From the NCBI GenBank assembly GCA_022605405.1, contig JABYQQ010000009.1, forward strand, positions 1,736,001 to 1,800,000: a stretch of DNA of 64,000 nucleotides, in the 5' to 3' direction. How positions within the stretch are numbered: the stretch's first letter is position 1; each line of letters starts with the position of its first letter. Position numbers and translations under genes: made by a program. The DNA comes from Earliella scabrosa (lineage: Eukaryota > Basidiomycota > Agaricomycetes > Polyporales > Polyporaceae). The notes below the pieces were generated by a model, which had not been told where the DNA came from, made no database searches, and saw nothing but the letters and a program-made list of their open reading frames with translations. Below, piece by piece: positions 296 through 37,802 of the stretch.

Positions 296-1429
296 TCATT
301 GCGACACGGCGCGCCGACCTCGCACAGATGGATAAAGACTGTCCCGCGCGACAATTCGTCCTCGGCGGGGGGCGGTCGTGGGAGGGAGAGGAAATGGATC
401 CGGGATGGCCAGTATCGGCGTCGAAATGAGCCAGTCGTTCAGAACCGGATCTGACCTGTCACATCGACGCTGACAGATGAACAGGGTGAGGAGGCGCCAC
501 GTCACTGTCAGTCCGAACGGCGGTAGTTCGCGTCCCCTCGCGCTGCCGCTGTGCTCGCCGTACAATGGATCCATGTAGTCCAACAGGCAGCCGGGGTCAC
601 CGAGGTGTCTCGACTGTTGGGGGCAGATGTACTGCGTTTTGAAGCAGGGGTTCTGTGTGTTCAATGGGGTATGGGGCGACGCGTCATGATAGTACTCCGT
701 CCATATACCGGCGTGAGGCGCGAACACGAATCCTCCGCGAATGGTCGCTCCCAGCACGACGCAGTCCACGTCGCTGATAGTGGGGAGGCGTACGTCGGAC
801 AGTAGCGCGCGGCGGTGTAAGGTCAGTGCGGGGTACGCACATGCGAAGCTGTGTTCTGTGATGTAATTCATGACGGCGGTGGAGGGGGAGCGAACGAGTG
901 TCGAGCAACCCGTCGATGCGGCAGCTTTGTACACTGCGATCGCCCGGCCGCTTCGCAAGCGGAAGGTGATGATACCCGAGATGTCGCGCTCTGCGCCGAA
1001 TTGACGAGGGGGGGCTCGCGCGCGGGTGGCCACGATGTTGCTGCTGTTAGCAGGGCAGGAGGAAAGTCTTGTGACAAGGGGGGCGAAGGTGCTCCGACCA
1101 GCATAGATTTGGAGCACGTCGCATGTCACGGACGCGTCCTGCAGGATGAAGGAGAGCGCGGCGATGCCGCCCACCACCGCGCGGAACTCGGTGAGGTGTC
1201 GCAGGAATGCGGGAGGGTCGTCGAAAAACGGATGCAGCACTGCGATGAGACGGCGACGAAGCACCTCCGTCACCTCGACGTAGAGCGTTCGGCAGGTGTT
1301 TCGCCACTGTATTCTCTCTGGCAAAGCCATCATTTCCAGAATAGACACATGGACATCGCTGTTCACGCTAGCAGGGTGGTTAGCAAAGGAAGGGTGTGTT
1401 CAGTTACAATTCGGCACTACTCACTCCAT
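296..1429 (-). CDS. F-box-like / degenerate nucleotidyltransferase-fold protein B1
   Basis: One of a family of seven related genes in this window. Proposed exons are 1425-1429 (only ATGGA) and 296-1367, split by a 57-nt GT-AG intron; the sum of 1077 nt is in frame and gives 358 aa. The N-terminus (MDVNSDVHV, then LEMMALPERIQWRNTCRTLY) resembles an F-box-like helix pair. It is followed by the NTase-fold strand-turn element VVGGIAALSFIL. The position that is DLDIYV in the A-type genes reads DVLQIYAG here, so the catalytic Asp pair is lost. A conserved family tail follows: an FACAYPALTL motif, a CP-Q-RHLGDPG motif and a DP motif. The function is unknown; it may be a non-catalytic NTase-like scaffold. 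The tiny first exon is the weakest part of the model, and starting at the GTG at 1366 is the alternative. Confidence 0.65.
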
Positions 1430-2304
1430 GATAGCGGACGGAGTTTGCAATACTGAATCTACGAGGACACCGACTGCTGCGCCGGTGTCGGGGACTTCGG
1501 CATGGGCGGTCGAGGGGACAGGCATCGCGCGCGCCCGGGGATGATTGAGTGTTGCGCGATGAGCAGAGCTGCGACAGAAAGAGCGGGCGTAATCGGGGTG
1601 TACTTATAGATGAACGGGAAGGAGATCCACTGAATAGTGGTTCGGAATTTCATGAGTACGACAGATAAGGTCGGCGACGGAATGTGTATGGCTTTGACTG
1701 GCGGGACGGACGCTGCCCAGTTCCCTATGCCATGCGAAGTGTAAGCTGCAGTGCTCGTCTCCGGTTGTACCGAGCGATCAGCTGCCAGTGGATCCAGCCG
1801 TCGGCCCGTCTACAGCGATGGTGGTGCCAGTCTTCGTCGTCCCTTCGCCGTACGGACGCTTACCGCGATCCCGTCGGTGATGAAGATCGCGTGTGACTGA
1901 GCGGAGGCTGTGACTAGCCATAGATCAACTGTGGGGTGCGGGCCGTGGTCGAGGAATCCGATCAACCGGAACCAGACGCGCTGTCCCGTTCAGACGCCGC
2001 GCGCCACATGCCGCCGGGCCCGTTGAAAACAGACGGCGGGCGGTTGCGGCCCGCGATGTCTCCGTACTGGACGGAGCACATTCATGCAGGAGTCGAACGC
2101 GCATGGATTCTTCGGTATCGTCATGCTACACTAACAACGTGGAAGATGCTGGGTGGAAAATGCATCGTGCATCGCTGTGAGTGGACTACATGTCACCAGC
2201 CCGATCTTCGTGCTACTGTGATCTGAGTTTTAGTACGTTCGGTCGTGCCCAAGGTGTCATGAGCCGGTTTCTGGACACTCCCACCGGACTCTGCGAAGCA
2301 TCAC
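1430..2304. other. intergenic, no gene recognised
   Basis: It separates B1 from the 3' end of the RNR large-subunit-like gene; both are minus strand, so it holds the promoter of B1. Short plus-strand frames at 1684-1896 and 1936-2226 show no family features. No repeat was seen. Confidence 0.4.
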
Positions 2305-5040
2305 CTATAGCGGTGATCCGAAGACCAGCCATGGATACAGCGACCGAGTTGGGCTGTGCGACAGCGATGCGTGGGTGGGCGGAGGTTCAATGAAATGTAA
2401 GGCAGTCTTGAGACGTGATTCCCATGCCCGGTGCTGTAGTACGCGCTGTATGATCGCAGTAGATGGTATCAATGCACAATCAAACGGATACTCGTACTTG
2501 ACGCACCCGAGTTGTAGGCTGATAACGCGGAACGCTGACCTGAGTCAGGTAGCTCTGTTCAATGAACGGAGCGCGCTCCGCTGCCATATCCACCAGGGTG
2601 GCCGGACTCCACTCCCACGAGGTGCGGAATATGCGCTTGACCCAAAGCGGGATGTTCGGTATATGCTTGATGGATCCTGGAGAGTGCCGCGAGTGTGAGC
2701 GGAGCGCCTCTTCTATGACCACGGCAGAGGACGTTTACCTCGATCTGACTGGATTTCCCGTGCCATCGCTTCTGTCCAGAGTCCCTCCCGCTCCAAGACA
2801 GCTACTAGCAACGGGTGCACCTCTTGGAGAACAGCATCTCCCGCGTTCGCCGTGCGTATGTTGCTGCCGCGTCCGTTAGCCATTATTCTGCGCTGCTTTC
2901 GCGCCACGCACCTGTAATGCGGATCCATTGCTTCTCCGTCTGCGTGAATAGCCGGAAACCACTGCATGGGCGGCATGCAGGCTAGCATGCAGTTCCGGAG
3001 ACCGTGCCTGGAAATGAGTTGCCGGAGCACGTCAAAGCCTTGGTCGGAACTCATGTCGACGGGCCACATGTTGACGTAGTGACGTCCCCGCTCTCCGAGG
3101 GACCCCGACCAGGTGGAGCATGGACCATCTCCTTCCGCCAATTCGCAGCTGGCGTTAAGCATCGCGGTGTAGAACGTCTCGAAGATCTCGATAGCTGCGA
3201 TACGCGCTTCTCCCGACGTGAAGGGTATCTCCAGCAGAATGAAAGCGTCCGCAAGTCCGTGAACTCCTAGGCAAACAGGACGTGCGTCTCGAGCGTGTTG
3301 CGCTGCGCTCTGGTTGACTTGACGGACCAGGTCATTAAGGCGGTCTCCGACGAGAACGGCCTGCTTCACAGCTTCACGGAAGCCGGCGAAGTCGAAATTC
3401 CCGTCGGCCGTTACGAACGCGGGAAGTGCCAAGGACATCGGTACCACGCCTACTCTAGCGCCAGGTGGACCGACTGCTGAACATGTCGCGCTTGCATCCA
3501 GACACGGCTGGGCGCCGAGATGCTGGAGACCGTTTTTCCCTAACCACGCTCTGGTGAAGGAGCAGTGCACTCGCAAGGAACTTGTGCACTCACTGTTCAA
3601 CGCGCACCAGAAGACACACTTGACCCGTCCTCCGTCTTGCTGTGCATCAGTGATGCTCTGCCACAGTTCCCTCGCAGAGACCTGGACGGAGTTTTGCAAC
3701 GCAGCTTCGTAGTAGACGTAGCGGGCAGTGAATCGCCCGCTATACAGGTGGCCGAGGTCCGATGCCGCGGCAGGGTCGAGCAACGTCCAGCTCGCATTCT
3801 CCTGGAGCCTTTCCATGCTACAAGCGGACCGCAAGTCAGCGACCCCGTTGCAACCGAGATTGTCAACACCCACAAAATGTCCGGAATCAGGATTCCCGCG
3901 GTAATGTGCTGTACTTCCTGTATCTCGGTTTCTCTGCCCGATATTTCGCGAATGAACTGCGTGATGCCTTCGTGCCAGAGGGGCATGTAGACCACAGTAG
4001 TGGTCTGCGGCGTTCCAGAAGTCTGAGCTTCCGTGATGGCGAGATCGTCCAGTTCGCGCAGACATCTGGAGAACGCGGTCCCGCTGTGAAGCAACGGGAA
4101 CTGATTAGCCTTACAACATCGTCATGGACGGACAGTACGCGTACCCAGTCTGTGAAAGGGGACTGATTACTGCCGCGACATGTGTGCCTCGTCGCCAGTG
4201 CTCGCGAACCGTGTCCAGACTTGCCGCTGACAAACAGCCGTTGTCGGTGTTTAATTCCAGGTCCGCGGTACCCGTCAGGGGCATGATATCCCTGGTTGTA
4301 CATGCAACTGAGCAGATCTGCGGAGGGAGGACCAATACCTGCCTAGACAGCAAGTCATACGTTTCCTCCACCGCGGTCAAGTCCAACCCACGCACGGCCA
4401 GCGCCACCCGCAGGAACATGAATTGAGGCCGTTCTGCTATTGTTCCGTTCACGCGCAGGAGATAGCGATCAGCGATGGTGCGCAACGTCGGACTGGCCGT
4501 ATTTTGTCAGATTTCCGGGCTCAATGCCATAGAGGTTGTCAATACACTCACTACCACAACTGCAGGTCGCGCTCGTGATGCACGATGCGATGAAGCGCTG
4601 CGGTGTTGCGTGCGATGAACGTTCGAACGTCGTCTCGAAGACAGTCCGGTCCGTCTGCAACGTCATCGCCGAGATCAGGGACGTCGTGTATATCAGGTCA
4701 GTCTCGGCCTGTCGCAAGCTACGATAACTGGGCTTACCCAAAGGGATAGTAGTGAGCCAGACAGCGGGAGACTCCGGTATTGTGACGTGCAGCGCGAGAG
4801 CGTACAAGCGGGAGGCCAGCTTGGCGTGGTCTGGATGCAGTAGGCCGTATCCAGCGACTGTTTCGGCCGCTCGTATCTGTGCAATAAACATCGGGCGCTG
4901 TTTCAGCGCTATTCGTCAGGTATTTTTTGCCCAGCGTACCAATATGTTATGTTCATCCAGACCGCTTGAATCCAGATTGCGCAGTGCCACTGCAATCCTG
5001 ACATGCGGTCAATATATGCGTCCGCGCGGTCCGAACTATC
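2305..5040 (-). CDS. diverged, probably catalytically dead ribonucleotide reductase large-subunit paralogue
   Basis: Minus-strand exons align in order with the RNR large subunit at 34.6-37.8 kb. They run about 5016-4925 (RIAVALRNLDSSGLDEHNIL), 4891-4470, 4485-4300 (RYLLRVNGTIAERPQF), about 4040-3890 (VYMPLWHEGI, ILIPDIL), then a long open exon to 2713, 2700-2480 (VDMAAERAPFIEQS) and about 2425-2305 (HRAWESRLKTALHF). Exon edges are approximate. Residues essential in class I RNR large subunits are missing. The SCFL cysteine region is absent, the NLCTE motif reads AQPCLDA, and the second active-site Cys in AVCTLASIALP is replaced (GVVPMSLALP). The radical-transfer Tyr pair (GLYYLRTRP) is ALHFIEPPP, and there is no C-terminal CxxC. 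Frames stay open across long stretches, so it looks like a diverged coding gene rather than a fresh pseudogene. It may bind nucleotides or RNR subunits without catalysis. Confidence 0.75.
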
Positions 5041-7644: not shown

Positions 7645-8850
7645 CTACGAGAGTGGGACTTCGCCGGGAGAATTTCGATTGACCGTGCTGCATCTACCGT
7701 CCTCGTGCTGGATGACGCGTCTTGATTCCGGTACACGCCCGTCCACATTCGCGCCGCGGGTGCCGCAGCGCGGGATTTCATTCACTGGTTCTGCGTCATG
7801 TCTTAGCGCAGGGCACAACATGCGGAAACAAAGACTCGCCCGTTCTACCGGGAGTTGACGCTTGATCCGCCAGCCTCGAAGAGTGCGAGTGACAGGCATG
7901 GAGGAAGTGGGCTGCAGATGTGGGGAAGAAAAGACCACACAGACAGCCTTCGTGTCGCCGAAGTAGTCGGCCTCGAAGCGTCCGGTGTCGCCGGTTGCAT
8001 CTCTGTGTTGTGCCTGGAGGAATTTGAACCCGCGGCTCTCGTATTTTGCAAGAGCGCTGTGCTCTTTCGGAGTAAGGACGTCGCGGTCAACGATGCCGCG
8101 CCTGTTCAGCGTCTCCGCGGGATAACCGCAGAAGCATCCCCCCGGCGTGATGAAATTCATGACAAGAGTCGTCCAGTAAAAGAGCAGGGGGTAGATGGGA
8201 GTGTTCACGGGGCTACGGATGACGTCCACTCGCCGTCCACTGCGCGTGGCGAATATTTGAACTTCCTTGATGCCGTTGGCCACCTGGTCTGGGAATGGCG
8301 GGCCACTGGGCGGAATGTCGGCGAGGAGAGTGAATGCAAGGAGCGGACGTAACTGCAAACCATCCACGAACATTTGAAACGCGTTATCTGGGACGTAGAT
8401 GTCGAGATCCTTGGGCGTCCAACCGCAGTCCTGGGTGAGGAACTGCAATGCCGCCGAACCCGAAATCACCGCTCCGCATGCATCCATGAGTTCGTTCAAC
8501 TCGGGTAGGCCATCCTGGACGAACGGGAGGATGCACTGTGCATACCGCTGTCGGAGGATCGATGCTGCCACCTCGCAGAACCGTTTTGCAGTGCGACGCC
8601 ACCGCAGCAGCATCCGCAAGTCGCTGTGATACATGATGCGCAGCGCTACGTCTTCAGGAATACTGTGATAGGTTCTGTGGTTAGTGTGCGCACGCTCGCG
8701 CGGCTTCGCACTTTTCATTGCGTTCGACACGCACCTGACGGACAGCCAGCCACCTTGCGCTGTTGACCTGTTCCCGGGAGAAGACGGGAGCGCGGAGCCC
8801 GAGTCACTGTCGGCGTTGACATGAGCGAGTGCGCACTGCACCGAGTTCAT
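7645..8850 (-). CDS. F-box-like / nucleotidyltransferase-fold protein A (left copy)
   Basis: Proposed exons are 8735-8850 and 7645-8662 around a 72-nt intron; 1134 nt in frame, 377 aa. A short variable leader is followed by an F-box-like segment (SIPEDVALRIMYHSDLRMLL). An NTase-fold core comes next: AVISGSAALQFL, then W-x-PKDLDIYV about 20 residues on, and a third acidic strand GRRVDVIRSP. This GS...DxD...D pattern is typical of DNA polymerase beta-superfamily nucleotidyltransferases, so catalysis is possible. The rest includes FITPGGCFCGYPAETLNRRG and EADYFGDTKAV, both shared with the right-arm copy at 27.7-28.9 kb. The split codon at the intron matches that copy, so the two are paralogues. 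The substrate is unknown. Confidence 0.78.
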   Translation of the reverse strand: MNSVQCALAHVNADSDSGSALPSSPGNRSTAQGGWLSVRCVSNAMKSAKPRERAHTNHRTYHSIPEDVALRIMYHSDLRMLLRWRRTAKRFCEVAASILRQRYAQCILPFVQDGLPELNELMDACGAVISGSAALQFLTQDCGWTPKDLDIYVPDNAFQMFVDGLQLRPLLAFTLLADIPPSGPPFPDQVANGIKEVQIFATRSGRRVDVIRSPVNTPIYPLLFYWTTLVMNFITPGGCFCGYPAETLNRRGIVDRDVLTPKEHSALAKYESRGFKFLQAQHRDATGDTGRFEADYFGDTKAVCVVFSSPHLQPTSSMPVTRTLRGWRIKRQLPVERASLCFRMLCPALRHDAEPVNEIPRCGTRGANVDGRVPESRRVIQHEDGRCSTVNRNSPGEVPLS

Positions 8851-10038
8851 ACGTACTGTCGTTGAAGCAGCGATGACCCTCGTGAAGAGCTCATTGGAGC
8901 AGAGGTGAGTGTGGATGTTGGAGGGAAAAGATGAACCGTGGGAAAGGGGGCAGGGGCGGTTGATGTAAACGTCGCTGCCTCGCCCGGTCCGGATCCTCCG
9001 GTTACGGCGTCTTGGAAGACTACGAGAACCGCAGTTCAGAAGCAAACGGTCCTCGTCCACCGCCAGATTCTAGTCTGCTCGTCACGTCTCCGCGCCCAGT
9101 GTGGCTGCTGAGCCCGTTCAACCCGTCGAGTGGATCGGCATCTCTGCTGTGCGACTCTGGTCAATGTTCGATCTCTCTCGTTACTTGACACGCCAACGCC
9201 CAATCAACTATCTCGGTCCTCGAATACAGGAGTGGCTTCACTTGGTGACGTGGGGGACATAGCTCACACATGTAGTCGCTAATCAAGGTAGCTGAGGTTT
9301 GAATGAGCGACGCAGACTCTGAACGTCACCTGGGCTGACCCTGCATCTTCGTTCACAGTCGGCTCGCGGCGATCCAGTTGATTCACGCCGCTGCGGTGGG
9401 GTAGACTTGGCGCCGTCCGCGACACCGTTATATCAACAGGAAAAGGACGCCGAGTGGCGGTGGACTGGTACGAACAAGGACCGGATGGAGGGACGAGGAC
9501 ATCCGCGTCAAGCACAACACACAGGTTAGCGAGAGTCTTGTAAGTAGGCAATTGATAACCTGTTAACGAACTCTGCTGCTGAAGCCGAATCTGGGTTGCT
9601 CTCGTTGCCGTCGTTCGAGATTACTGCGCGACGTCACTTGAACGCTAGGTCTGTTATATCGCGCTCTGGGCGTCGGGAGCCTACTACCTAAGACAGCGCG
9701 CGGGATGCGTCGACGGAAACATGCTCCCGCTTCCAGTGGACGAGGCCGATCATGACTGCTGTCACTTGCACGTATGGACGAGCGCGTTGCACGTTGAATG
9801 GAGCGTGGTTTTCTGAGCGCCACTGAGAACCGCTGCGGCTCGGGGTGTTTGCGTCCCGCTAGATGGATGTCTACTTGAACCCACAACAGCTCGACTTCGT
9901 CCATGGCACGCGACTTATCCATACGCCACATGCATAGATATCCAGGCCAGTACTGCTGTTATACAATGCAATCTGCGGTGCCAACACTTCGTCGCGTCCC
10001 GGCCCCCTTCCCATCGGGTCTGCCCCCCTCCACGGCGA
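8851..10038. other. intergenic, no gene recognised
   Basis: It lies between NTase-like B2 and NTase A, both minus strand, and should include the promoter of NTase A. Minus-strand frames at 9279-9551 and 9563-9931 lack family features. Confidence 0.35.
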
Positions 10039-11252
10039 CTATAAACTCAACCGTCGCTGCCCCCGCTTCCATTTCATTCGCCGCTCCTCGTTACTCTGTT
10101 CGAAGCGGTGCAGGAGACGTCGATGGAGTGTGGGGAAGAACATCGTCCCACTCGTGAATACCGACGGCATCGATATCATACCTCGGGGAACCACTCCGCC
10201 CTGCTGCGCGCAGTTTCCGTCGCACGACTGCGAGCTCCACAGCCTCCACGCAGCCATGACGCCGAAGGGCGCTACGGCAAGGACCCGTGCGTTCCTCGCA
10301 TCTCCCCGAATAGGATCAAAGAACACCACCATCGATCCTTCATCCCCGAAATGGCGTCCTTGGTCTGGACAGATGAAAAGTTCTGCGAGACAGCGGAAGA
10401 TTCCTAGAGGGGGGTCGGGGATAGCACGATGGATGTACGCGGGGAGCTGCGTCGGTTCATGGACCAGGTCGTATCCGGCTTCGATTAGCCTCGCCATGGT
10501 GACGTACTCCTCGTCGGCGAGCGCAGAGACGCGCAGGTCGGACACCAGCGCATGCCTGCTAAGAGTGAGGCGGGGGTACGCGCATCCAAAGGAGAACTCC
10601 CCGACAAAGTTCATCAAGGCGGTGCACCACGATCGCGCCAGCACCGAGCATGCACTGACGCCGAACGCTTCGTAGACGTGGATGACCCTTCCCCGCGATG
10701 TCTTGAAGGTCTCCCGCCGGCTGATGTCACGGGTGTGGGCGTACGTTGGTGTCATCGACGAGGATCCAGTCCAGTCCACATGCGCAGCGACGACGCTGGA
10801 GCGCTTCATGCGGTCCATCAGTAGGGTGAATGTGGAGTTGTTGACAAAGATGTCCATCCGGCCGGGAGCGAAGCCATCGCCCCGCAACAGCAGATTAAGC
10901 GCGAACTCGCCGCCGATGATCGCGCCGCACTCTGTCAGGACGCGGAGCAGGCCGCGCGTGCATGGAAGGAAGACCTCGATCGCGCCGTGGAGTTCTGCCT
11001 TGAGAATCCGCACACTCTGGAGGTACGTCGTGCGAGATGCCGCGCGCCACGCGATCAGAGTGGGAAGGTCCATCTCTTGAATAATGGCAAGACAAATGTC
11101 TTCGTTCACGCTGACAGTGGAAGAGCATCGGGTGAGACTCGCTTGCTTTATAAGTACGGACTACAATGTACTTACCCAATGTCGCGTCTGTCCACTCTGA
11201 CACAGTGTTCAGGCAATTCAACGCTGAAATTCATATTCGCAATCTGTGCCAT
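10039..11252 (-). CDS. F-box-like / degenerate nucleotidyltransferase-fold protein B2
   Basis: Exons 11176-11252 and 10039-11110 around a 65-nt intron give 1149 nt in frame, 382 aa. Exon 1 starts MAQIANMNFSV. Exon 2 opens VNEDICLAIIQEMDLPTLIA, aligning with B1 and B3, and has the same length (1072 nt) as exon 2 in both. The NTase-fold signature is IIGGEFALNLLL followed by GRMDIFVNNSTF. One Asp of the DxD pair remains but the GS motif is GG, so catalysis is doubtful. It shares the family tail with FGCAYPRLTL, ICPDQGRHFGDEGSM and FFDP, and its closest relative by eye is the right-arm B gene. A TATA-like ACTTATAAAGC lies within the intron on the coding strand, so an alternative downstream start is conceivable. 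Confidence 0.72.
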
Positions 11253-11830: not shown

Positions 11831-12674
11831 CTAACTTTGTGTAGTAGATCTGGACAGGCGTGATAGGTATTCCCGCACGTGCTCCACGTCCTCCGTCTCC
11901 ATATTGAGGTACCGACGTCGGCGCGGCCCCGCTGCCTTCAGCACGACCACGGCGTCTGTGTACTGCCATTCCGACTCTGACGGGGTTGTACCCGTCTGCT
12001 CCGTGGTACGGGGTCTGCCGTGAAATACGTGCAACGGGTCGAGGAGCAACTGCATGTGGGCACCGAACAGCAGGACTCTACGTCGAGTGACCACACGGAA
12101 GAAGCGGGTGAGGTCGGGAATTTCTCTCGTGCCGTTGCTGGTCACGCCCTCCTGCAGAATCCGCACCTGCGTGAACCCGCTGGGCTCTTCGCTCAAATGT
12201 TCAGTACGGCTACGCTGTGAAGAGATGTCCACACACTCACCAGTGGGTCGAGGGGTGAACACTCCCGTGACATAGAAACAAGTCATGTCCGCTGCATCCC
12301 TGATATGCGCTGGAGTTACAAGGTCCTGCCGTGCACTCATCGGGCCGGTATACATTGACAGATCGCTCGCTTCCACCCGCTCACCGTCACAGTCCCAACG
12401 GTGGCGGGGCCAATGCTGTTCACGGGACAAATCAGTAACAGACGACGGTAGGCGTGCATGAGCGTCCACTCACTTCTAGGAAATGCTGCGGAGAGCAATA
12501 CGCGGGTCCGATGCGGCAGCGATTGCATGTGAAAATAGTAGCTGCACCGCACACCGCGCAGACAGGGAGGTCTGCGCTGCGCAAGTACGGAGTGTATTGA
12601 GAAAGAAGAGCCGGAACTAAGACGGGCCCGCCAGTCTCCGCGGTACCGGAGGCATTGTGGTGGATATCGCTCAT
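11831..12674 (-). CDS. MYND zinc-finger protein (left copy)
   Basis: Exons 12474-12674 and 11831-12415, with a 58-nt phase-0 intron inside the zinc finger, give 786 nt, 261 aa. The MYND finger spans residues 38-76: LPVCAVCGAATIFTCNRC, then YCSPQHFLE, the intron, and HWPRHRWDC. This supplies the usual C-x2-C, C-x2-C, C and H/C ligands. MYND fingers normally bind proline-rich peptides. The C-terminal part (LTRFFRVVTRRRVLLFGAHM, LDPLHVFHG and the YLNMETEDVEHVREYL end) aligns with the right-arm MYND protein at 23.6-24.5 kb. The intron in the finger is at the same position and phase in both. The role is unknown. Confidence 0.75.
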
Positions 12675-12956: not shown

Positions 12957-14112
12957 CTAACAAGATCTGGTCCTCCGACTGCCGTTTGACTTCACTGGTG
13001 CCCGGCCGCGTGCGTCGTTCTTCGCTGGAGGAGCAGGCAAGGCGCGGTCGGAGAATCGGTCGGGCACGAACACGAAGGCACTTGACACCAACCACTCGTG
13101 CAGCACGGTGTCGCGGACATCGCACAGAGCCGCGCATTCGAACGACGTCGACAGTCGCCACGCAACCATGGGCCCGTATGGCGGAATGCAGGAGGCACGA
13201 ACAAGTCGGCTATTACTGCCGACTGGATCCACCAAACCTACGAGAGACCCCGCATCACCGAAGAACCGGCCCTGCATTGGGCACAGGTACCAGCGGGCCG
13301 TGCAGAAGTGCGAGTTCGGTCGTGTGGGTAGGGCAGTGGGAGGGAATGGTCGGAACTCTTCCCAGGCAGTGGGACTGATCGCGAAGGAGAACCCTGCACG
13401 ACACAGCGCCCCGAACACCTCGTGATCGTCAAAGTCCATACGAAGAAGTCGGAGGTCGGAGAATATGGCCCGGCGACGTAACGTTAGGAGGGGATAGGCA
13501 CACCCGAAAGTATGCTCGGTAACGAACGTCGCAAGGGCCGAGAGCGGAGACCGGACAAGCGGGGCGCACGCCGTCCCCTTCGCACCGCTGTATATGACGG
13601 CCCGGCGACCGTTGTCGAGATAGAGCACCGTTCTTGCAGTGACATCGCGTTCGAACTTGACGTACCGCGCCACCGGCATCTCTTCCTGGTTCCTAACGGA
13701 TCGTGCATTGTGCGTGCAGGTGACTAGCCGATCGACGAGCTGGCGGTAGCAAGGAGACGGAACGTAGATCTGAAGGATGTTGGATGAGAGCGATAGATCG
13801 CGCAGTATGAATGCCAGTGCCAGCGTCCCTCCGACCACCGCGCGGAACTCCGTCAGGTTCCGCAGCAGCGCGTCGGGATACTGAAAGAACCGTCGCAAGG
13901 CGGATGTTAGGGTACGGCGCATGCTGTCCGTTGCCTCCTGGTATAGCGCGCGACAACAAGCCCGCCACGCCAACAGTGACACGACGTCCATGTTGTCCGC
14001 TACGATCGCGCCGATCTCGACAGGCATGCTATATTAACAGCTGAGATGAGACTCATGCTTCGTATTAGATTTTGTCAAACACAGACCTGGAAGCATAGCA
14101 GTGCACAGGCAT
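12957..14112 (-). CDS. F-box-like / degenerate nucleotidyltransferase-fold protein B3
   Basis: Exons 14087-14112 and 12957-14028 around a 58-nt intron give 1098 nt in frame, 365 aa. The second exon opens MPVEIGAIVADNMDVVSLLA. NTase-fold remnants are VVGGTLALAFIL and SSNILQIYVPSPCY, with both catalytic Asp residues missing. The tail keeps the family blocks FGCAYPLLTLRRRA, YLCPMQGRFFGDAGSLVGL and PYGPMVAWRL. It sits just downstream of the Helitron RepHel gene on the same strand, separated by about 490 bp. It is most like B1 in the central region by eye. The function is unknown. Confidence 0.72.
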
Positions 14113-21383: not shown

Positions 21384-22543
21384 ATGGCGACTCCCAATCC
21401 GTTCCTCCACAGTGACCCGTCTCGGTTTGTGCTCTTCCCCATTCGCTATCCTCAGGTTCGTCCGCCCGTGTCCATGGCAATGCAAACATGCCCACTCACG
21501 TTCAGCAGCTATGGGCTGCATACAGAGACGCGCATCGCAGCATCTGGACTGCAGGCGAAATCGACCTGTCCAGAGACAGCATACAGTGGGCAAACGCCCT
21601 GACGGAAGACGAGCGCAACTTCTTCTCCACCATTCTCGCCTTCTTCGCTGCCTCCGACGGGATCGTGGCGGAGAATCTCGCCCAGCGCTTCTGCACTGAA
21701 GTGCAAGTTCCGGAGGCACGGTGCTTTTACGGCGTACAAATCATGATGTATGTACCTTGACAACGGCGTGTTCCTCACTGACCTTCTGTAGGGAGAATGT
21801 CCACGCCGAAGTCTATAGCCGAGCGATCCAGGAGCTCCTTCCCAACAGAGATGAACAAGACCGACTGTTCCGCGGCTTCCTGACGATGCCCGCCGTACGC
21901 GCGAAGGCGGATTGGTGCCTGAGGTGGATCGACAATTCAGAGAACTCCTTCTCCGTCCGACTGTTGGCCTTCGCCATCGTCGAGGGTGTTTTCTTTTCGT
22001 CGTCCTTCGCTGCCATCTTCTGGCTCCGACAACGCAGTCTGATGCCTGGTCTGGTACAAGCAAATGCGATGATTGCTCGCGACGAAGCTCTGCACGTCTC
22101 GTTTGCTTGTCTCCTGTACAAGCACGTAAACCTGCCAGTAGATACTGAAACCGTGCACCGCATGGTCGCTGAGGCGGTGCGTCTTGAACACGAGTTCTTC
22201 ATAGGTGAGTGCTCCTCCACTTCCAACCAACAACTGACAACTGATCCAGACGCAGCTGCTCTCCCCACGCCGTTGCTCGGAATGAACTCCATCGTTATGC
22301 GCCAGTACGTCGAATATGTGGCCGACTTCTTACTCAGGGAACTCGGACTTCAACCCCTCTACAATGCAGCCAACCCCGTATGTGTCCGCGCATGCTTGCA
22401 CCGTCATCATCGCGCTGACATCGCGAACTTTCCAGTTTCCATTTATGGAGATCAGCATTATAGAGAGAAAAACCAACTTCTTCGAACGCCCCGTCAGCGA
22501 TTACCTCGGTATCCCGGTTCCACGCACAGCAGATGACATCTGA
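21384..22543 (+). CDS. ribonucleotide reductase small subunit (class I R2)
   Basis: Supplies the diferric-tyrosyl radical cofactor for ribonucleotide reduction. Exons are 21384-21455, 21506-21747, 21792-22204, 22250-22377 and 22436-22543, with introns of 44-58 nt; 963 nt, 320 aa. The first intron could instead end at 21508. Landmarks are [22 protein letters not shown] (metal-ligand Asp), [25 protein letters not shown] (Glu), [10 protein letters not shown] (Glu, His and the radical Tyr), [15 protein letters not shown] (Glu, His) and [19 protein letters not shown]. The metal ligands and the radical tyrosine that I could check are present, so it should be functional. It is shorter at the N-terminus than typical fungal R2 proteins of about 400 aa. 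Its likely partner is the RNR large subunit at the far end of the same arm. Confidence 0.93.
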
Positions 22544-22599
22544 GACTGTGCGCAGATGACGACGAAATACAACCAATGACTGTGTGCCACGAGGAAGCA

Positions 22600-23630: not shown

Positions 23631-24464
23631 ATGAATTTACCTTCTGCCACCAACACTGCGGATTTTCCGCACCCCCTCACTGCATTGCGGATCATCACCT
23701 TGCCTCAATGTGCGATCTGCACCGCACCCACCGTCTTCAGCTGTGCGCGCTGCGACAATGCGTACTACTGCAACGCAGCGCACTTCGTCGAAGTACGTAT
23801 CGCAGGCGGAACGCTCATCGTTGTGCTCACCAACTGCAGCACTGGCCTCAGCATCGTCTCTGCTGCTCACACTCGGCCAACTCACTCCCTACGGCAAACA
23901 GCGATGTCCAGTTCAGACATCCTGCGCCGGAACCTTCCTCACGGCCGCATTCTTCCGTCTCCGAACCTCGTCCCGCACTCCACGACCTCAACAGTAGCGA
24001 AATCGTCGCCCTGCTCGCTCATCCGCACATGCGTGAGTGTGCTGTCCCCTCCACACTGCACCAGCACCCGCCAGAATATTACGCTGACTGTCCCTGCAGG
24101 ACTCCCACAACTCATACGCGTCCCCGTCGCACACCATACATCAGCCGCAGGCAAGCCGGTGCACATGCCTGCCGTGCAACATTTCTTCCGCAGACGCTGT
24201 GGACGCGCATTCATACAGTTCGGCCACAGGATGCGCTTCCTGCAGTCGCCCTTTCACATGTTCTACTGCGTGGACTCCTACACGAGCAACACTCACCCGA
24301 ACCGAGCGGTAGAATCCATGACCGAGGGCGCTATCCCAAAACCGCGACCATGGCCAGGGCTAGTGTTGATCTTGAAGCTTGAAAGCGCATCCAGCAAGAC
24401 CTATGTGGACCTCGATACCGCCGATATCCCGGATATCCGCGAGTACTTTGTACACTTTTCCTGA
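23631..24464 (+). CDS. MYND zinc-finger protein (right copy)
   Basis: Exons 23631-23792, 23840-24032 and 24100-24464 give 720 nt in frame, 239 aa. The MYND finger is LPQCAICTAPTVFSCARC, then YYCNAAHFVE, a 47-nt phase-0 intron, and HWPQHRLCC. Ligand spacing and intron position are the same as in the left-arm copy. Downstream come a Ser/Pro-rich linker, HDLNSSEIVALLAHPHM, FFRRRCGRAFIQFGHRM, LQSPFHMFYC and a YVDLDTADIPDIREYF end that aligns with the left protein. This copy has one intron more than the left one. MYND domains are protein-interaction modules; no partner is visible. Confidence 0.78.
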   Translation: MNLPSATNTADFPHPLTALRIITLPQCAICTAPTVFSCARCDNAYYCNAAHFVEVRIAGGTLIVVLTNCSTGLSIVSAAHTRPTHSLRQTAMSSSDILRRNLPHGRILPSPNLVPHSTTSTVAKSSPCSLIRTCVSVLSPPHCTSTRQNITLTVPAGLPQLIRVPVAHHTSAAGKPVHMPAVQHFFRRRCGRAFIQFGHRMRFLQSPFHMFYCVDSYTSNTHPNRAVESMTEGAIPKPRPWPGLVLILKLESASSKTYVDLDTADIPDIREYFVHFS

Positions 24465-26099
24465 GAGAAAATAGAACAGTAATCGACAGGGACCGAGGAG
24501 TGGATGGAGAATGTCACGACGTAAATTCACCAGCTCGTCTATCCGCCACCAAATCAGGCGGAGCCCAGATTCTCGCGCGCGGCTCCACGTGGCACATGCT
24601 CCTTGCCCCCGGTGGAGCTCACCCCAGCACACGGTGCTGCCAGTACAGCATCCACATCGTCGCGACACCTTTACACTTCCCATCGACCCAGTCGATCCAC
24701 GCAAACGTACGCTTCCAGTCCTCGACGCATCGACATCACGCCTATAACTCACCAGCATGCATATACAGTCCCTGCGACCGTCGTACCACAACAAGGTCCC
24801 CCCCTTCTTGCATCCGCTCGCACGCAACACCGTATACACTACCACACAGTCGCGTCGTGACATCCAACTCGCGTCCCCAATCCATCGCCAGCGAGCCAGT
24901 ACAGCACGCAGCCATCCTCGTGCCACGATCAACCGCGCCCACCGGCGCCGTTTGGAGGGCACACTCGCCCGCCAGCAAGTCCTCAGAATCAGCACACGTC
25001 CACAGCAAGCACCGGTCCCCTCTCTCGTCCTTCCTTGCTGATCGTGCTCGCCCAGCATGAGCCCCTGCACCCGCTCGCCCCTCTCATCATGCTCCCGGTG
25101 TATGCTTTTCCGTGCATCCGCTCCCTCCAGCAAGGCGCACCTGCTTCTCACCATGGCTTCAATACGTGATGCCGCATGGACTCTTCCGTGCTGTCATCAA
25201 CGGTATCACCTTCCCGTAGATGACAAGGAGCACACCCGGTTAGTCAACGCATCGTCTGAGCACCTGCATATCCCGCACGCACTTATGTTTCGTCGAACTT
25301 TCAGCCCCCAGCTCGCCCTCATTGCCGCGGCCGCCTGTACACTGCGCACCGGTCCTGTCTCACTCGTCTGAACAACTGAAACCCCCGCATCCCACAGACA
25401 TCCCGGTCGGTCCCCTTCTTCAACAAAATGCCCCACTCAGACCTCAGACGTCCATTGTACAGCTCCCGCCATCCACACCACCGAGACCTCTAGCCCTCCT
25501 GCAACCACATGGACAGTCCCCAGACGGAGACAGACCATCCCCCGCGACGGGGGGGAGGGGGGGAAGCAGGTGCCAGCGTACGTTCCTTTTCCGCAGAATC
25601 CACGATCCGCGGCACATACCAGACCGTACTTCTGCAGTCCGCGTTGTCTGCCCCTGTCCTGAACCCCGTTGTCAAGCATCCTCCGCCTCCCGCTCCGTCC
25701 AAGCGCCAACCGACGTGCGACTCCTCCTGACCGGTCCATGCCTCGATGCAATACGCACGTCTCCGACATCTGCGGTGCAAACCGGTCCTACAAGTCCACC
25801 TCCGATCGCCAACCCTGTCTTCTGACTGCCATCGCGCTACCTCCCGACACTACGGACCGAAATCAACCATCGGCCCGGTCCTCTCATACGCCCCACGCCA
25901 CTTGCCACCTATTTATCTGACCACGCGCCACCGCACTCCGATAACACCTCCAGACGATCCCCGCTCGTACCGATCTGTTCGTCTCGTCCCCCGTCAACCC
26001 CGTACCCGTGAAACCGCCACTCCAGCGCCTGCTAGATTCATTCCGCGAGGTCTGCTCCATTGCGGTCTGTCCAGAGCACATACACCTCCATCCGGAGCA
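24465..26099. other. C-rich intergenic stretch, no gene recognised
   Basis: The plus strand is strongly pyrimidine-rich and opens many Pro/Ser/His frames (for example 24500-25060 and 25322-25825) that look like composition artefacts. No splice-linked coding pattern was found. It precedes the right-arm B gene. Confidence 0.4.
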
Positions 26100-27277
26100 A
26101 TGAGCGCGTCCATCACAGTCGTTGCCGCGACCACACCCGCAGCCAGAGTGTATGTTTCCGAAACACCTCCCTCCCGCCGCGGCTGACCCTCGGCTACAGA
26201 TTACACGTGGACATAGGTCGTATCATGACCGACCGTATGGACTTGGCCCAACTCATGGTGTGGGCGCAGGTCTGTCGCACAAGTCGGACGCATGTTGCCG
26301 CCGCCCTGCAGCGCACACTTTACACAATGCTGCGTCGCTTCTTACCGTCGGACCGCGAACTCCTTCGAATCGTCACTGACTGTAAAGCGATCATCGGCGG
26401 GTTCTTCGCCCTCTGCTTCCTCCTCCGAGACCGGATGTTTGATCCTTTCACGCTCGACATCTACGCTAGCGACGCCTCTTTCCCCACTCTCGTCGAGTAC
26501 TTCATGTACTCGCCCCTCCTCGCGCCACACCTCCGATTCAACGGTACAACCATGTCGAACCATCAGCACCGCGTCAGATTCCTTGTTAGACGCGAAGCCA
26601 CATTCAACACCAACTCAGGAAAACGCATTCGGTTGCGCGAATCCGCCACCGTCAGCGCTTGCTCCCCCATCAGCCGCGCGTGGACAACCGCTCTCATGAA
26701 CTTCGTCACGGAGACATCCTTCGGATGCGCCTACCCGCACCTCACCCTGAATGAACGCGCCCTCGTGTCAGACGCCTACGAGCCAATGCTTCCACCTGAA
26801 GCACGACGCGTCAGGCACGTTCTTCGGCACAACGGGTTCAGCTTACAGACGCACCCCGCCCAATGGGACGACTACGCCGTACAAGTGCCGCTGTCCAACG
26901 CCCTTCCCCCCGGCATCTTCCCCTGCTTTCGCGATCAGCATCTTTGTCCTGACCAGGGACGCTACTTCGGGGATAGGGGATCTCTTGTGGGGTACTTCGA
27001 CCCAACGCCCATGGCCCGTACCGTCGCCCGCGTTCAGGGAAGCCCCCCCTACGGACCAATGGCAGCGTGGCGACTATGGGTTCGACAGTGTTGCCACCGT
27101 TCATGCATTGTCAACGACCCCATTCTACACAGCTCCATCATCTCTTCTCCACTCATCATCACCGACGAGCGCATGTTCCATCAGCCGTCCAATGACGCGG
27201 ACACAATGTCCAGTCCTCGCGCTTTGTCCTCCGTCCCTATCCCCATCCGCGGACGCGGGCGAGCCTTAACTATATAG
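26100..27277 (+). CDS. F-box-like / nucleotidyltransferase-fold protein B (right copy)
   Basis: Exons 26100-26149 (MSASITVVAATTPAA...) and 26200-27277 around a 50-nt intron give 1128 nt in frame, 375 aa. Exon 2 opens LHVDIGRIMTDRMDLAQLMV, in register with B1-B3 and with the same intron phase. The fold signature is IIGGFFALCFLL, then FTLDIYASDASF, so one Asp of the DxD remains. Family blocks are FGCAYPHLTLNERALVSD, HLCPDQGRYFGDRGSLVGYF and PYGPMAAWRL. By eye it is closest to B2 on the left arm. It lies upstream of NTase A on the same strand, as B2 does on the left arm. Enzyme activity is doubtful. Confidence 0.75.
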
Positions 27278-27691
27278 GAAGCACGCGCGCTCTTCGTCCG
27301 AATGCATCGTCCACATAGCAGAACAACCGCCCACCAGGACACATCACCAACCGCCAACATTCTCTTCACCTTCATGCAAATCTACGTAGGAGCGAGTGGT
27401 CAGAACAGGACTGGGGATCGGCACGCCGCATGTAACCACTATTCTGCTTGTACATATGTTGCTCTGTCCGTGACACTACTTGCCCTGCTGCCCACGCGGA
27501 CGTAAGCGGCCGCACTCCGACCATTCCTATAGTGCGGACCGTCGGGCCGTGTACCTTTAAAGTTGGCAGCCATTGATTCCGACTCGATCGGAACATCCCA
27601 GGACTTGGCTATAACTGGCCGAGGCCAAGCGAGCCCGCCCTTAACTCAGACTTCTGTCAGGGTCGCTGTACACAGAGCACCATTCGATCCC
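27278..27691. other. intergenic between right B and right A genes
   Basis: About 0.4 kb with no coding signal; presumably the terminator of B and the promoter of A. Confidence 0.4.
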
Positions 27692-28902
27692 ATGTCACCT
27701 TCGCGTTCGGGTTCCCCTTCCTCCTTCTCCGACGCAGTCTCCTTTCCGCACGCTGCGCGTGCGTCGACCATCCCCCGGGCTTCCGCTCCTCCTCCTCCTG
27801 ATGATGTACCAGAGCTGATCGGACCGATCCAGTGAGCCGCCCTGCATATCGCGTGCCTGCTTGTACTTATTCCTTCGCAAGAGTCCCCACGGACATCATC
27901 GTCAGTATCATCCAACAATCCGACACCATTGCCGTTCTCTCTTGGCGGCGCACCTCCCGAGCTCTCTTTACTGTAGCTGCCACTGTATTGCGGCAGCGAT
28001 ACCACGCCAGCGTCGTCCCCTTCTTCTCGGACGTAGCGCGGCTTGATCAACTTCTTCGGCAGTACGGCGCGCTAATATCCGGCTCCGTCGCTCTTCAATT
28101 CTTCCTCAACGAAGAGCCATGGACGCCTGGTGACCTCGACATCTACGTACCAGCCAAATACTATCGCGCGTTTGTACAAACCATCGTCCGCGACGATAGA
28201 TTTGCCCTCCGGTTCCACCCGCGTCAGCGAATCGCGCCAGCCGCCATAGCTGACGAGCTCAGCCTCGATCTCGACTACGTCCTCCTTGCACTCACCGACA
28301 CCGAAGGAGACGGAATTCCCTCCCCGGCCGCGGACTCGCAAGGCATTAAGCAAGTGCTACGATTCCGTACCTCCACCGGCCGCAACGTCGACATCGTCTG
28401 CAGTCCCGTGGACGACGCCATAACCGCACTACACGCGTTCTGGTCGACCCTCGTCGCGAACTTCATCTCACCTGACGGATGCGGCTGCGGTTTCCCCGCC
28501 GGTACAATAAATCGGAAAGGCTTCGTCAAGGCAGGAAGCTTAACGCAACGCGACCTTGCCGCCGTGATAAAGTACACACGACGAGGGTTCACCATTGTCC
28601 ATGACCGATGGCAGTCCATGGACGATGATCCATCCATGTGGGACATCGACTACTTCGGAGATGTGGATGCCATGGCGCTCAGTTTTCGCCTACACGCAAA
28701 CGACCAGCCCCTGCCGCTGCCGGTGGAACGAACCGACCGGGGCTGGCACATTATACACCCCTTCCCGCGCACTGAGGTAAAGCCCGCTCCCTACTTCTCG
28801 TGCAGTACACGACTAAGAACTGTCTCAGAATCTATCTACCTAACCGTTGTCTCGCGCGGACACTCCGGCCCGGTGCTACGCAGGAGCAGTAAACATCAGT
28901 GA
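27692..28902 (+). CDS. F-box-like / nucleotidyltransferase-fold protein A (right copy)
   Basis: Exons 27692-27831 and 27882-28902 around a 50-nt intron give 1161 nt in frame, 386 aa. A Ser/Pro-rich leader of 47 residues is followed by an F-box-like segment (VPTDIIVSIIQQSDTIAVLS, then WRRTSRALF). The NTase core is ALISGSVALQFF, WTPGDLDIYV and GRNVDIVCSP, the full GS...DxD...D pattern of the polymerase-beta superfamily. FISPDGCGCGFPAGTINRKG and DIDYFGDVDAMALSF match the left A copy. Intact catalytic signatures in both A copies, against decay in the B copies, suggest the two subfamilies are under different constraint. The substrate is unknown. Confidence 0.8.
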
Positions 28903-34623: not shown

Positions 34624-37600
34624 ATGACCGACAGTCCGACTCCGTTCGCCACGATCGTAAAACGAGGTATGCTGGATCATAACATGCATCCGCGTGATTC
34701 GCTAACCACGAACTTTCAGCGGGGTACCTTACATCTTACGGCACTAGCGACTCAGTACTTACTTCTACCGCCCAGCTACCTACAGCCCTTCCTACCCGTC
34801 AAAGTAAGCAATACACGGTCGTTTATTGTGTATATATCACTCACATTACCCAAAGATGCGCCGCTCTCTGGAAATCGTGAATTTTCCTGCCCGCCCGTCC
34901 CATCCCCCAATCCGCGAACTGACCCGCCGACACTAAATAGCTTAGCTGGAACCTGGATAGCGCAAGGCTTGATCTGGATAAGTGAGCACTAAGTCATCCG
35001 CATCACGCACGCATGTAACTCCGCGACAACAGCCTAGTAGCACGCATCCATGCCGGCCTTCCGATTCAAGTCACCGCGCAGGAGCTCCAGGTGAACCTCC
35101 ACCCCTCGCGGCTTTCCCCTCACGCGTCCGCGACGCTGATGTCTACATACACATAGCTCCACGCCGCCGACGCCGCGGCAGCGATGAGCAGCCAACACCC
35201 CAGCTACTCCACCTTGGCGGCTCGGCTCTGCGTCGCGAACTTGCACCGAGTCACCGAGAAATCTCTCACCCGCTGGGTGACCACATACGGTAACCCACAG
35301 CACTCCCTCGCTACTCCCGCCTCCTGCTCACTGCACCGCATAACAGGTACCACAGCCCGTCTTGACCCAGAGGTCATTAGCGTCATCGAGGAGAATGGGT
35401 TCGCGCTTGAAAGTGCAATCACACATAGCAGAGATTTCGACCTCGACTAGTACGTACCCACTGTACGACAAAACCCAGTCCCTGACGTCCCCCCGACAGC
35501 TGCTCCATCCAGTCCTTGATCCGTTCGTACCTCATTCGCGTCAACGGCGAAACCGTAGAGCGGCCGCAGTTCTTGTTCATGCGGATCGCAGTCGCGATTC
35601 ACAAAACAAACATCGACGCAGTCATCGAAACTTACGAGGCGTTATCTAACCGGCTGTACACCCACGCATCTCCAACTCTCTTCAATGCGGGCACGCAGAA
35701 CAAGAAATTTGCGTCCTGCTTTCTGTATCAACCCAACGTTGACAAACCCGCCGCGCTACAGTTCCTCGCCACCGCACATGAGCTCGACAAGATGTGGCTG
35801 GACGATGGCGGGATCGGGATGTCGTTGTGCACCGTGCCGTGCCGGCGGTAAGCTATCTGATCCCGTCCTTCTAAATGTCACTAACAGTCCTCCGCAGAGA
35901 GACACCGCGGAAGCAGCCGGGCATCATGCCGCTCATGAAGGTGTACGACAGCCACGCGGCGTACTGCGTGCAGAGCCGGGAAAGACGCCCCTCCGCATTG
36001 ACCGCCTATCTACCGATCTGGCACGGAGACGTCGTCCCTTTCATACAGACTCGCACGGCCCGTGCCAGCGAGGAGCAGCGCCTTCGCCATGTATTCCCAG
36101 CGCTGTGGATTCCGGATGTGTTGTAAGCAGCCTCCCCCTCCGCCAGCACCCACCAACATGCCATCCCCGCTGACCTTGCCGCCCTCTTACAGCATGGAGA
36201 AACTCGCCGGTGGACGGGACTGGTACCTGTTCGATCCATCCGACGTCCCCACACTTATCGGTGCATACGGGACGCAGTTCACGGACGCTTACGAAGCCTA
36301 CGTGCGTTCTGGAGTGTACACTGCGAAGATCAACACAGTCCGCATCTGGGAATTCATCTGCAACGCACAAACCGAATCCGGCAGCCCATTCCTCCTGTAC
36401 CAAGACAACGTCAACAGTATGTCCTCTGCCTTCCCGCCCGTCGCCGCGGCTGACCCCACACCAACCCTCCCTTGCCACAGTACGCAATAACCAACAACAT
36501 CTTGGAACCGTCGTATCATCGAACCTCTGCACCGAAATCGTGCAGTACTCCGCGCCGGGCGAAACAGCAGTGTGCACACTCGCCTCAATCGCGCTGCCGC
36601 GCTTCGTGCGAGACCGCGAATCGTTCGACTTCGACTACCTGCACGACATCACGAAACTCGCCGTTCGAAACACAGATCGCCTACTCGATCTCGCCACATA
36701 CCCTACCGACGCTTGCGCCGCAACCAGCAGTAGCACGCGCGCAATTGCCATCGGAGTGCAAGGTCTCGCGGACACGTTCATGGCACTCAAGCTCCCGTAC
36801 GATTCTCAGCTCGCCCGCGAATTCAACATCGCCATCTTTGAAACCATCTACCACGCTGCACTCGAAGAAAGCTGCGCGCAGGCCAAGGAACATGGTCCGT
36901 ACCGCGCGTGGGTCGGCTCGCCCGCCTCGCAAGGCAAACTTCAGATGGACATGTGGCCTACCACCACTAACGGACGACATGACTTTGGCCCTCTGCGAAC
37001 TGCAATCTCCGACCATGGTCTTCGCAACTCAACGTTGACTGCACAAATGCCGACCGCGTCCACTGCCTACATCCTCGGGAACTCCGCAGGGACGGAACCT
37101 TATCCCAGGTGTGTTTTTTTTTCACCGTGCACCGCGTGGCGCGCGCCTGACACAGCACACAGCAACGTCGTCACCCACCAGCTCCTCAGCGGAGATTACA
37201 CCCAACTCTGTCCTTGGCTGGTCACTGACCTGGAGGAACGCGGGCTGTGGGACGAAAACATGCGCATCTCGATCCTTGCCAACCGCGGTACGCGACGCAC
37301 TACAGCCGCTACGAGCTCAACCTGACCACACGACAGGATCTGTGCAGGACATCAACACTGTTCCCGAAGACTTGAAGGCAATCTACCGCACAGCGTGGGA
37401 GATCGACTCGGAAGCCATCATCGACATGGCAGCCGACCGTGCACCCTACATTGATCAAAGCCAATCCTTGTCGCTGTACATGACAAAGCCCGATGGAATG
37501 GTGCTCGTGCGTACCCCGGTCACGGATACGTTGCGTGTCATGCTGACCGACCGTCTGGCTCCCCTCCACTACAGGCCAATCTCCAGCTACGCGCGTGGAA

Positions 37601-37802
37601 GCTAGGCCTAAAAACTGGTCTCTATTACCTCCGGACCCGTCCCCCCGCCTCCGCACTGCCGTACGGACTGGACCAGCGCGACGACACCGCCACAAGCTCC
37701 ACCACCGGCAGCCCGCCTCCTCTCGAGCCCGTCGAAGAGGAAGCCGCTCATATCGAGACGGAAGTCGCCGCGATCGAAGGATGCGAAGCCTGCTCGGGAT
37801 GA
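34624..37802 (+). CDS. ribonucleotide reductase large subunit (class I R1)
   Basis: Reduces ribonucleoside diphosphates with the R2 subunit. Exons, all in phase: 35033-35090, 35157-35289, 35347-35449, 35500-35847, 35898-36122, 36193-36416, 36481-37108, 37163-37287, 37337-37500 and 37575-37802. A 5' part from ATG 34624 (MTDSPTPFATIVKRG) is likely, but its splicing is unresolved. From 35157 the model gives 725 aa. Catalytic features are ASPTLFNAGT with SCFL, SSNLCTEI, AVCTLASIALP, MPTASTAYILGN, the radical-transfer Tyr pair in GLYYLRTRP, and a redox GCEACSG end. Oddities: the N-terminal ATP-cone is not recognisable. The segment after GGIGMSL is short and lacks the usual TGSYIRGTNG-type loop. 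Specificity loop 2 reads VQSRERRPSA instead of the common DQGGxKRxG. So it is probably active, with altered allostery or specificity. Confidence 0.92.

Follow-up and report, generated by a model that had tools for sequence, protein, structure and literature searches.

Layout of the window copy

The window analysed here is a stretch of 64,000 nucleotides from Earliella scabrosa (Polyporales; genome of 51.7 Mb in 48 contigs), C9:1736001-1800000, where C-numbers denote contigs of the genome and L-numbers sequence stretches taken from element loci. It holds the right 38.4 kb, or two thirds, of a 60,631-bp inserted unit (C9:1713733-1774363), a probable giant Helitron-like element in which a Helitron-type RepHel gene lies among genes for ribonucleotide reductase (RNR), nucleotidyltransferase (NTase)-like proteins and MYND proteins. 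The following features were found in the window.

14604..20660, minus strand: RepHel; 2019-aa open frame with DUF6570, Helitron_like_N with HxH (779), Y-x3-Y (967/971) and PIF1 helicase
21384..22542, plus strand: RNR small subunit R2; 5 exons, about 319 aa; PF00268, E 4e-53
35184..37802, plus strand: RNR large subunit R1 of the right arm; 9 exons, 718 aa, GT-AG introns; most of the ATP-cone missing
2308..4870, minus strand: R1', RNR large-subunit paralogue of the left arm; exons approximate (tblastn); PF02867, E 5e-42
12960..14033, minus strand: NT1, NTase-fold protein
11831..12674, minus strand: MYND protein of the left arm; one intron; PF01753, E 9e-6 on the spliced model
10042..11160, minus strand: NT2, NTase-like; reciprocal best blastp partner of NT4
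7648..9069, minus strand: NT-B of the left arm, B-type NTase-like; GS...DLD...VDV motifs; weak F-box-like match, E 0.036
299..1399, minus strand: NT3, NTase-like; outermost left-arm gene within the window
23632..24464, plus strand: MYND protein of the right arm; PF01753, E 0.0025, below the curated cut-off; blastp against the left MYND protein, E 2e-14
26036..27277, plus strand: NT4, NTase-like, right arm; partner of NT2
27805..28902, plus strand: NT-B of the right arm, B-type NTase-like
38333..38363, plus strand: conserved 3' terminus, GTGTCCAGGTCCGCCCGGAGGGCCC...TTA, then T
38364..39133, plus strand: right-hand piece of a split small repeat with terminal inverted repeats (TIRs), outside the element; left TIR piece at C9:1713711

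Two Pfam scans of the window covered 111 chosen frames and a set of ten frames; short exons can be missed in them. As the original prediction had stated, transcription is divergent from a start near 21 kb, and the recognisable genes on both sides are transcribed outward. R2, which was absent from that prediction and was identified here, starts 724 bp from RepHel and faces it. From the centre outward, the left arm carries NT1, MYND, NT2, NT-B, R1' and NT3, and the right arm R2, MYND, NT4, NT-B and R1, with the MYND, NTase-A, NTase-B and R1 genes in the same order in both. The predicted sharing of these four families was borne out, for three of them with pairs by blastp: NT2 and NT4 are reciprocal best partners within the window (219-228 bits, 40%), the two NT-B proteins are best partners there (37% identity), and so are the two MYND proteins. 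The low nucleotide identity noted earlier also held, as no blastn match between the arms was obtained at E 1e-3. Two details were not confirmed. No protein X common to both arms was found between NT-B and R1, and the intact GS...DxD motif, previously assigned to the A-type NTases, sits in the B-type genes instead; among the A-type proteins, NT2 and NT4 retain the D of the second motif and NT1 and NT3 have Q there.

The order common to both arms is likely best explained by an old inverted duplication, as had been proposed, because four gene families share their order across the arms and form best-partner pairs. The expectation that left and right genes would prove close relatives in trees held in so far as the NT2/NT4, NT-B and MYND pairs are best partners, and failed for R1 and R1', which are not closest relatives, presumably because of the age of the duplication. 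NT2 and NT4 also join in the NTase tree, from which the tree program dropped NT__C13_1135; this join was flagged as long branches meeting, and the pairing is taken from blastp.

Outside the last left-arm NTase lies a gene with a conserved RKRxYLESLEEYxxWL-like motif (L078:1-1018; also L073, L074 and L072), and the same gene occurs beyond the right R1 in two copies (L020, L012). It gave no Pfam match and perhaps encodes a small transcription factor.

Extent of the inserted unit

The original prediction had confined the cluster to positions 296..37802. The unit, however, runs about 22.3 kb further left, beyond the window, and ends on the right at 38363; nucleotide homology with the closest copy (on C1, about 78%) ends at 38364. 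From there to 39133 follows a small repeat with inverted ends whose left TIR lacks its first 22 bp. Eight other copies of this repeat are intact, with both TIRs 820-838 bp apart (left TIR starts C1:809833, C1:5311687, C11:995552, C12:261467, C12:1392653, C13:866493, C16:174667 and C20:393146), and in each of them the match to the window begins 22 bp past the left TIR start. An orphan left TIR in the right orientation lies at C9:1713711. Its 18 letters are identical in seven of the eight intact left TIRs, and its nearest listed partner is the window's own right TIR. The 18-base TIR pattern gave 62 matches, of which 27 differ at no more than two positions (reversed control, 13), and a 24-base pattern for the left junction gave four matches, none at C9:1713711. 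The orphan TIR and the repeat without its left 22 bp therefore indicate that a single insertion of 60,631 bp split the repeat, its left end being placed near C9:1713733 by coordinates, from the repeat copies and not from junction letters.

Within the split repeat, at window:38500-38610 on the minus strand, stands GGTTCGAATCC, a tRNA-like B-box; ARAGORN reported no tRNA at 38.5 kb. The right flank contains, at 57551-58588 and 59459-60772, a lone and more divergent NTase relative, which shares 25-28% identity with the A type, and a CxC6 domain of KDZ transposons, as read from the scan.

Helitron features and element termini

The window RepHel matches PF14214 (E 3e-34) and PF05970 (E 1e-23), with the Walker A motif at 1537. 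It thus combines the two parts expected of a Helitron protein, an HUH nuclease with two tyrosines (Y967-x3-Y971) and a superfamily 1 PIF1-like helicase. The RepHel frame spans at least 1890 aa, with no stop within the match, in 17 of the 26 RepHels that face an R2 in this genome.

To define the 3' end, the 19 stretches that follow an R1 match (18 loci and the window) were compared. Twelve share a sequence of about 24-34 bases, which lies some 0.2-0.6 kb past the point where the R1 match stops, and all twelve diverge afterwards. The terminal motif was not seen in the other seven (L012, L018, L019, L020, L022, L025 and L027), of which L027 stops 79 bases before the C34 terminus. In all twelve copies a T directly follows the 3' end, and a palindrome, GCCC-GGA-GGGC, lies near it in eleven, L015 having one additional C. 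Allowing up to two mismatches, the terminus pattern occurs at 102 places in the genome and its reverse at none. Among the 100 listed places used, it lies within 8 kb downstream of 22 of the 45 R1 places, always on the same strand, and upstream of one of the 45.

The 5' end was approached through the flank past the terminus of the C8 copy, which is a short relative (L028) whose start reads TCCAGGTCTCG. The first 90 or so bases of this element were found at 30 listed genome places; in 27 of these the alignment breaks off no more than four bases from the start (query 421-424). A TC start is present on L028, the one copy whose 5' letters were read; the neighbouring base in this case is A, itself the last base of a giant element. 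Elements were then defined by joining each 5' end to the closest same-strand 3' terminus. This gave 18 short elements of 0.42-1.54 kb and six giants of 44.4, 61.1, 63.4, 77.5, 79.4 and 144.1 kb, which hold RepHel, R2, R1 and NTases between both ends. Three spans of 6.5, 7.3 and 10.6 kb were counted as neither short nor giant, and a 39-kb span from C9:781000, whose 3' end belongs also to a 0.9-kb element, was left uncounted. In all six giants RepHel reads toward the TC end, opposite to the sense of the termini. In the 144.1-kb giant, NTase and R1 stretches recur at intervals of 15.2 kb; in this triple NTase-R1 repeat (C1:2414310, 2429501 and 2444688; L075-L077) the 4-kb NTase stretches are 99.85-99.98% identical.

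RepHels without R2, such as those at C2:324979, C3:1776065, C4:793755, C6:1191338, C8:1869651 and C28:138661, have a terminus of the same pattern 8-43 kb downstream, in sense, and for five of these six it is the TAGTCCAGG variant. They perhaps represent a sister class of large Helitrons.

Ribonucleotide reductase genes

The right-arm R1 covers PF02867 in full (positions 1-523 of 523, E 7e-155) and also matches PF00317. Across 19 element loci the sites C, N, C, E, C, Y and Y are retained, the first C and the last Y in 18 of 19 and the others in all. In 19 chosen R2s the metal ligands and the tyrosine (D74, E105, H108, Y112, E168, E202, H205) are invariant. Element R1 and R2 thus carry the residues of a class I RNR, namely metal ligands and radical Tyr in R2 and radical/redox Cys and the Tyr pair in R1.

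The element R1 is missing more than half of its ATP-cone, the first part, and keeps the last. In the host R1, which served as positive control, tblastn covered the cone (query residues 23-95, E 5e-26), and in nearly all matching element R1 loci homology begins at residues 60-77 (43 and 52 in two cases). Likewise, the full window R1 model gave no PF03477 match, and the control P0152 matched at 8-96. At least 465 bp upstream were covered for the window copy and L010-L016, and less for most others, so that the absence is weaker for loci with fewer than 250 bases upstream. A genome-wide search for the ATP-cone family returned no match, the host R1 included, and was hence uninformative; tblastn was used instead.

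The left-arm paralogue R1' has D, S, T and V aligned at the N, C, E and C catalytic sites. Its relatives P0148, P0150 and P0151 are 85, 53 and 51% identical over the part searched, and R1' looks catalytically dead yet conserved. The R1 tree places four left-arm paralogues (one from the window, one from C1, two from C5) in a clade of their own, separate from all right-arm R1s (100/100), and the arm duplication is therefore older than the dispersal of these copies.

IMG/VR contains at least 579 stretches with a gene for an R2 relative. In a tree holding 26 of the 80 kept loci, the element R2s fall outside the viral clade. A joint element-viral R2 clade was disfavoured (approximately unbiased (AU) test, p 0.038; the groups were chosen with the tree already known), and a grouping with basidiomycete hosts was not rejected (AU p 0.38). 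A viral origin of R2 was thus considered and is disfavoured by tree placement and test.

Recurrence, selection and age of the copies

Searched with protein families and single proteins, the whole genome yielded 68 RepHel, 99 R1, 80 R2 and 120 NTase matches, counted exon-wise and as lower bounds. The R1 list was condensed to 45 places, among them host R1 and left-arm copies, and the R2 list to 30, two of which are host genes; the places were then clustered. In 24 of the 26 RepHel-R2 pairs the gap between the domain matches is 2474-2948 bp, and the two outliers, of 9.1 and 22.7 kb, look like later insertions. The remaining two non-host R2s (C10:2068 and C44:21282) have no RepHel facing them. R1 lies outward on the R2 side in 18 of the 26 pairs and on the RepHel side in nine. 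The same arrangement thus occurs at many other genome places, hence beyond chance.

Copies on C34 and C8 are 99.7% identical over stretches of 2.2-2.5 kb, and no match on C34 (C34 terminus 298245) is listed for the 430 bases past the C8 terminus. This pattern fits better with transposition than with duplication of a large segment. Two copies show smaller events of their own. In the C34 copy (L027:2498-3019), about 522 bases in or near the R1 end are not in the C8 copy and are flanked by an overlap of about 11 bases, a young small insertion. In the C1 copy the right R1 is split by about 20.3 kb (C1:5061943-5082281; window equivalent 37039-37049), and the matches overlap by about 11 window bases, as expected of a target duplication.

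RepHel, R2 and the NTase of the closest copy, on C1, are under purifying selection: dN/dS was 0.072 for R2, 0.093 for NT1 and 0.055 for RepHel (311-codon part), at dS of 0.63, 0.49 and 0.64. Most other copy comparisons were saturated at silent sites. Two rows, L023 and L036, were set aside, being the window itself with stitching faults at exon ends. NT1 and NT3 of different copies split by position (one change on the tree, 73/88, in 90% of bootstrap trees), and because they group in this way the gene set probably predates the copies.

Relatives are also found outside E. scabrosa. Homologues of R2 are present in Polyporus, Lentinus, Cerioporus, Trametes and Ganoderma, and NTase homologues were found in other Polyporales as well. 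The NCBI protein P0028 is 99% identical to the window R2. P0069 (Ganoderma sinense GSI_06573) is an element-type R2 annotated as a single gene with about 200 extra N-terminal residues.

Interpretation and alternative explanations

We are fairly confident that the unit is a giant Helitron-like element of E. scabrosa, about 60.6 kb long, whose RNR would give it its own deregulated supply of deoxynucleoside triphosphates (dNTPs). The original prediction had left two options, a Helitron that carries RNR, NTase and MYND genes as cargo or a gene cluster that a Helitron had joined. The former is favoured because the set lies between defined ends, inside a split repeat and in copies on many contigs, and because RepHel, R2 and NTase of the closest pair have diverged similarly.

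In the mechanism that we propose, RepHel would nick the TC end and peel off one strand, the conserved 3' motif would stop the peeling and yield a circle, and the circle would re-insert beside a T. An R1 that lacks most of its ATP-cone would, paired with R2, make dNTPs without dATP shut-off, and such a dATP-insensitive supply could sustain the replication of a very long element when the cell is not in S phase. The dNTP need of a 60-kb copy is small against a genome of 51.7 Mb; an RNR would therefore be sensible if copying were repeated or took place outside S phase. For R1' and the NTases, a role as regulators or counter-defence factors is more likely than one as transposition enzymes, and the short elements would be mobilised in trans. 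A bolder extension, which we consider less likely than not, is that a Helitron lineage has turned into a virus-like, self-sufficient replicon: a rolling-circle element of 45-80 kb, amplified as extrachromosomal circles in resting fungal nuclei, with its own dATP-insensitive RNR, with R1' and NTases restraining host control and with short derivatives riding along.

Several observations weigh against a Helitron-like element of this design. At the termini, the 5' ends of the giants are known as coordinates, letters having been read on L028, and the window copy gave no match with the 5'-end query from L028. The 3' end is not CTRR, since TTA or CTA precedes the T in all twelve copies; the palindrome folds no better than shuffles (z +1.13, DNA fold, window end); and the window copy seems to have inserted at T|T, not A|T, judging from the paralogous repeats. 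In 17 of the 26 pairs RepHel runs opposite to the 5'-to-3' direction of the termini; of the others, seven have no terminus within 50 kb, C25:382806 has one downstream in sense and one is ambiguous. To our knowledge, an antisense RepHel is unlike other Helitrons. The gene order also varies. R1 and NTase features were outward in 93 cases and inward in 15, some of them from neighbours, in a count that covers 28 rows including two wrong pairings. The C12:1551k copy has its R1 inward on the RepHel side, and the two-arm order is therefore not universal; it is absent in some copies, and some subfamilies have no NTase match. Finally, the right-arm R1s are not one clade, as C12_1539k and C22_453k group with host and outgroup R1s (100/99).

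Four other explanations were weighed. That RepHel is a passenger and the unit was moved by TIR or recombinase machinery would accommodate the lack of CTRR, the unsupported hairpin, the antisense RepHel and the 22.3 kb on the left that lie outside the window. We nevertheless regard it as very unlikely, given the TC start on the copy that was read and the T after the 3' end in all twelve. Furthermore, no inverted match with E <1 joins a left flank piece (L078:1-1200, short of the true left end) to the right end, and the Pfam scans of element frames turned up no further transposase or recombinase. Among the scanned window frames there was no DUF3435 tyrosine recombinase, the captain found at one end of Starships; the left end of the unit lies outside the window. 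A tyrosine recombinase is mentioned for Starships in one account (PMC12134995). Helitrons are known to capture genes or fragments (PMC6431247, PMC4289320), and RNR and NTases might be passive cargo without a role in the life cycle. This is rather unlikely in view of full-length genes with catalytic residues kept and dN/dS <0.1, a like set at like places in many divergent copies, and R2 relatives in five further genera.

An endogenous large DNA virus or its decayed remnant, using RepHel for replication and bringing RNR along, would suit the many divergent copies, and the truncated ATP-cone, the dead R1 paralogue and the large gene-rich unit recall such viruses. Against this unlikely origin stands the absence of capsid, packaging ATPase and DNA polymerase among the Pfam matches of the window frames scanned (the 111 and the ten; 22.3 kb of the unit lie outside the window). 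The R2 placement described above also speaks against it, and a pattern scan of IMG/VR returned no NTase relative. Finally, a fixed host cluster of RNR, NTase and MYND genes joined by a Helitron by chance is already mostly refuted and in our view hardly credible. RNR is indeed a host enzyme family, and the host grouping of R2 was not rejected, but the 26 divergent RepHel-R2 pairs keep near-constant spacing, termini are held in common, the small repeat was split by the entire unit, and canonical host genes exist elsewhere (R1 at C9:79196; R2 at C5:1027600/1029632).

Comparison with known systems

Helitrons are usually viewed as small transposons that pick up gene fragments accidentally. Here the Helitron-type machinery is part of a unit whose size is several times that of the fungal elements described in PMC6431247 and PMC4289320. 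The same unit carries a conserved, full-length module for nucleotide synthesis of a kind otherwise characteristic of cells and large DNA viruses. By titles and abstract starts, no report of an RNR inside a Helitron was found in the open-access literature. It thereby becomes testable whether a eukaryotic transposon has the dNTP supply for its replication under its own control. The element type may be widespread and overlooked in mushroom genomes, because R2 relatives occur in several genera of Polyporales.

The closest fungal likeness is to HELPO1 and HELPO2 of Pleurotus ostreatus, which have a RepHel with Rep and helicase, a T[C/G] start and short non-autonomous copies. HELPO1 also carries additional internal genes, and the 3' end of HELPO2, CTTG, departs from CTRR (PMC4289320). 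The differences are size, 1.5-13.7 kb for HELPO1 against 44-79 kb and one of 144 kb for the E. scabrosa giants, the antisense position of RepHel relative to the 3' end, and gene content, as the accessible HELPO text has cap genes and contains neither 'reductase' nor 'nucleotidyltransferase' (PMC4289320). The same source also describes a 37.2-kb region of P. ostreatus that carries 14 genes and inverted repeats of 576 bp; in one haplotype it lies on two chromosomes, and the other haplotype lacks it (PMC4289320). Large maize Helitrons reach 39 kb and hold several host-derived pieces; these are gene fragments, whereas the E. scabrosa genes are full-length, under purifying selection and in the same arrangement in many copies, and full-length capture by Helitrons is rare (PMC6431247). 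Helraiser, from bat Helibat1, resembles the element in its TC start, palindrome before the 3' end, T after the end and RepHel. It ends in CTAG after a 19-bp palindrome, in contrast to TTA or CTA and a 4-bp stem in E. scabrosa, and the accessible account mentions no RNR or NTase (PMC4778049).

The element NTases share about 10% identity with CCA-adding enzymes and TENT5/FAM46 (PDB folds), and no Foldseek match was obtained at E 0.001. They differ from these enzymes in that the second-motif carboxylate of the A type is often replaced, and in their helical N-terminal part.

Herpesviruses have an R1 without dATP control and dead R1 paralogues. Large DNA viruses with class I RNR (the IMG/VR R2s) resemble the element as replicons with an R2 of the same type; their R2s nevertheless form a separate clade, and the scanned E. 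scabrosa window frames hold no virion genes. The element may link rolling-circle transposons with virus-like replicons in a concrete way.

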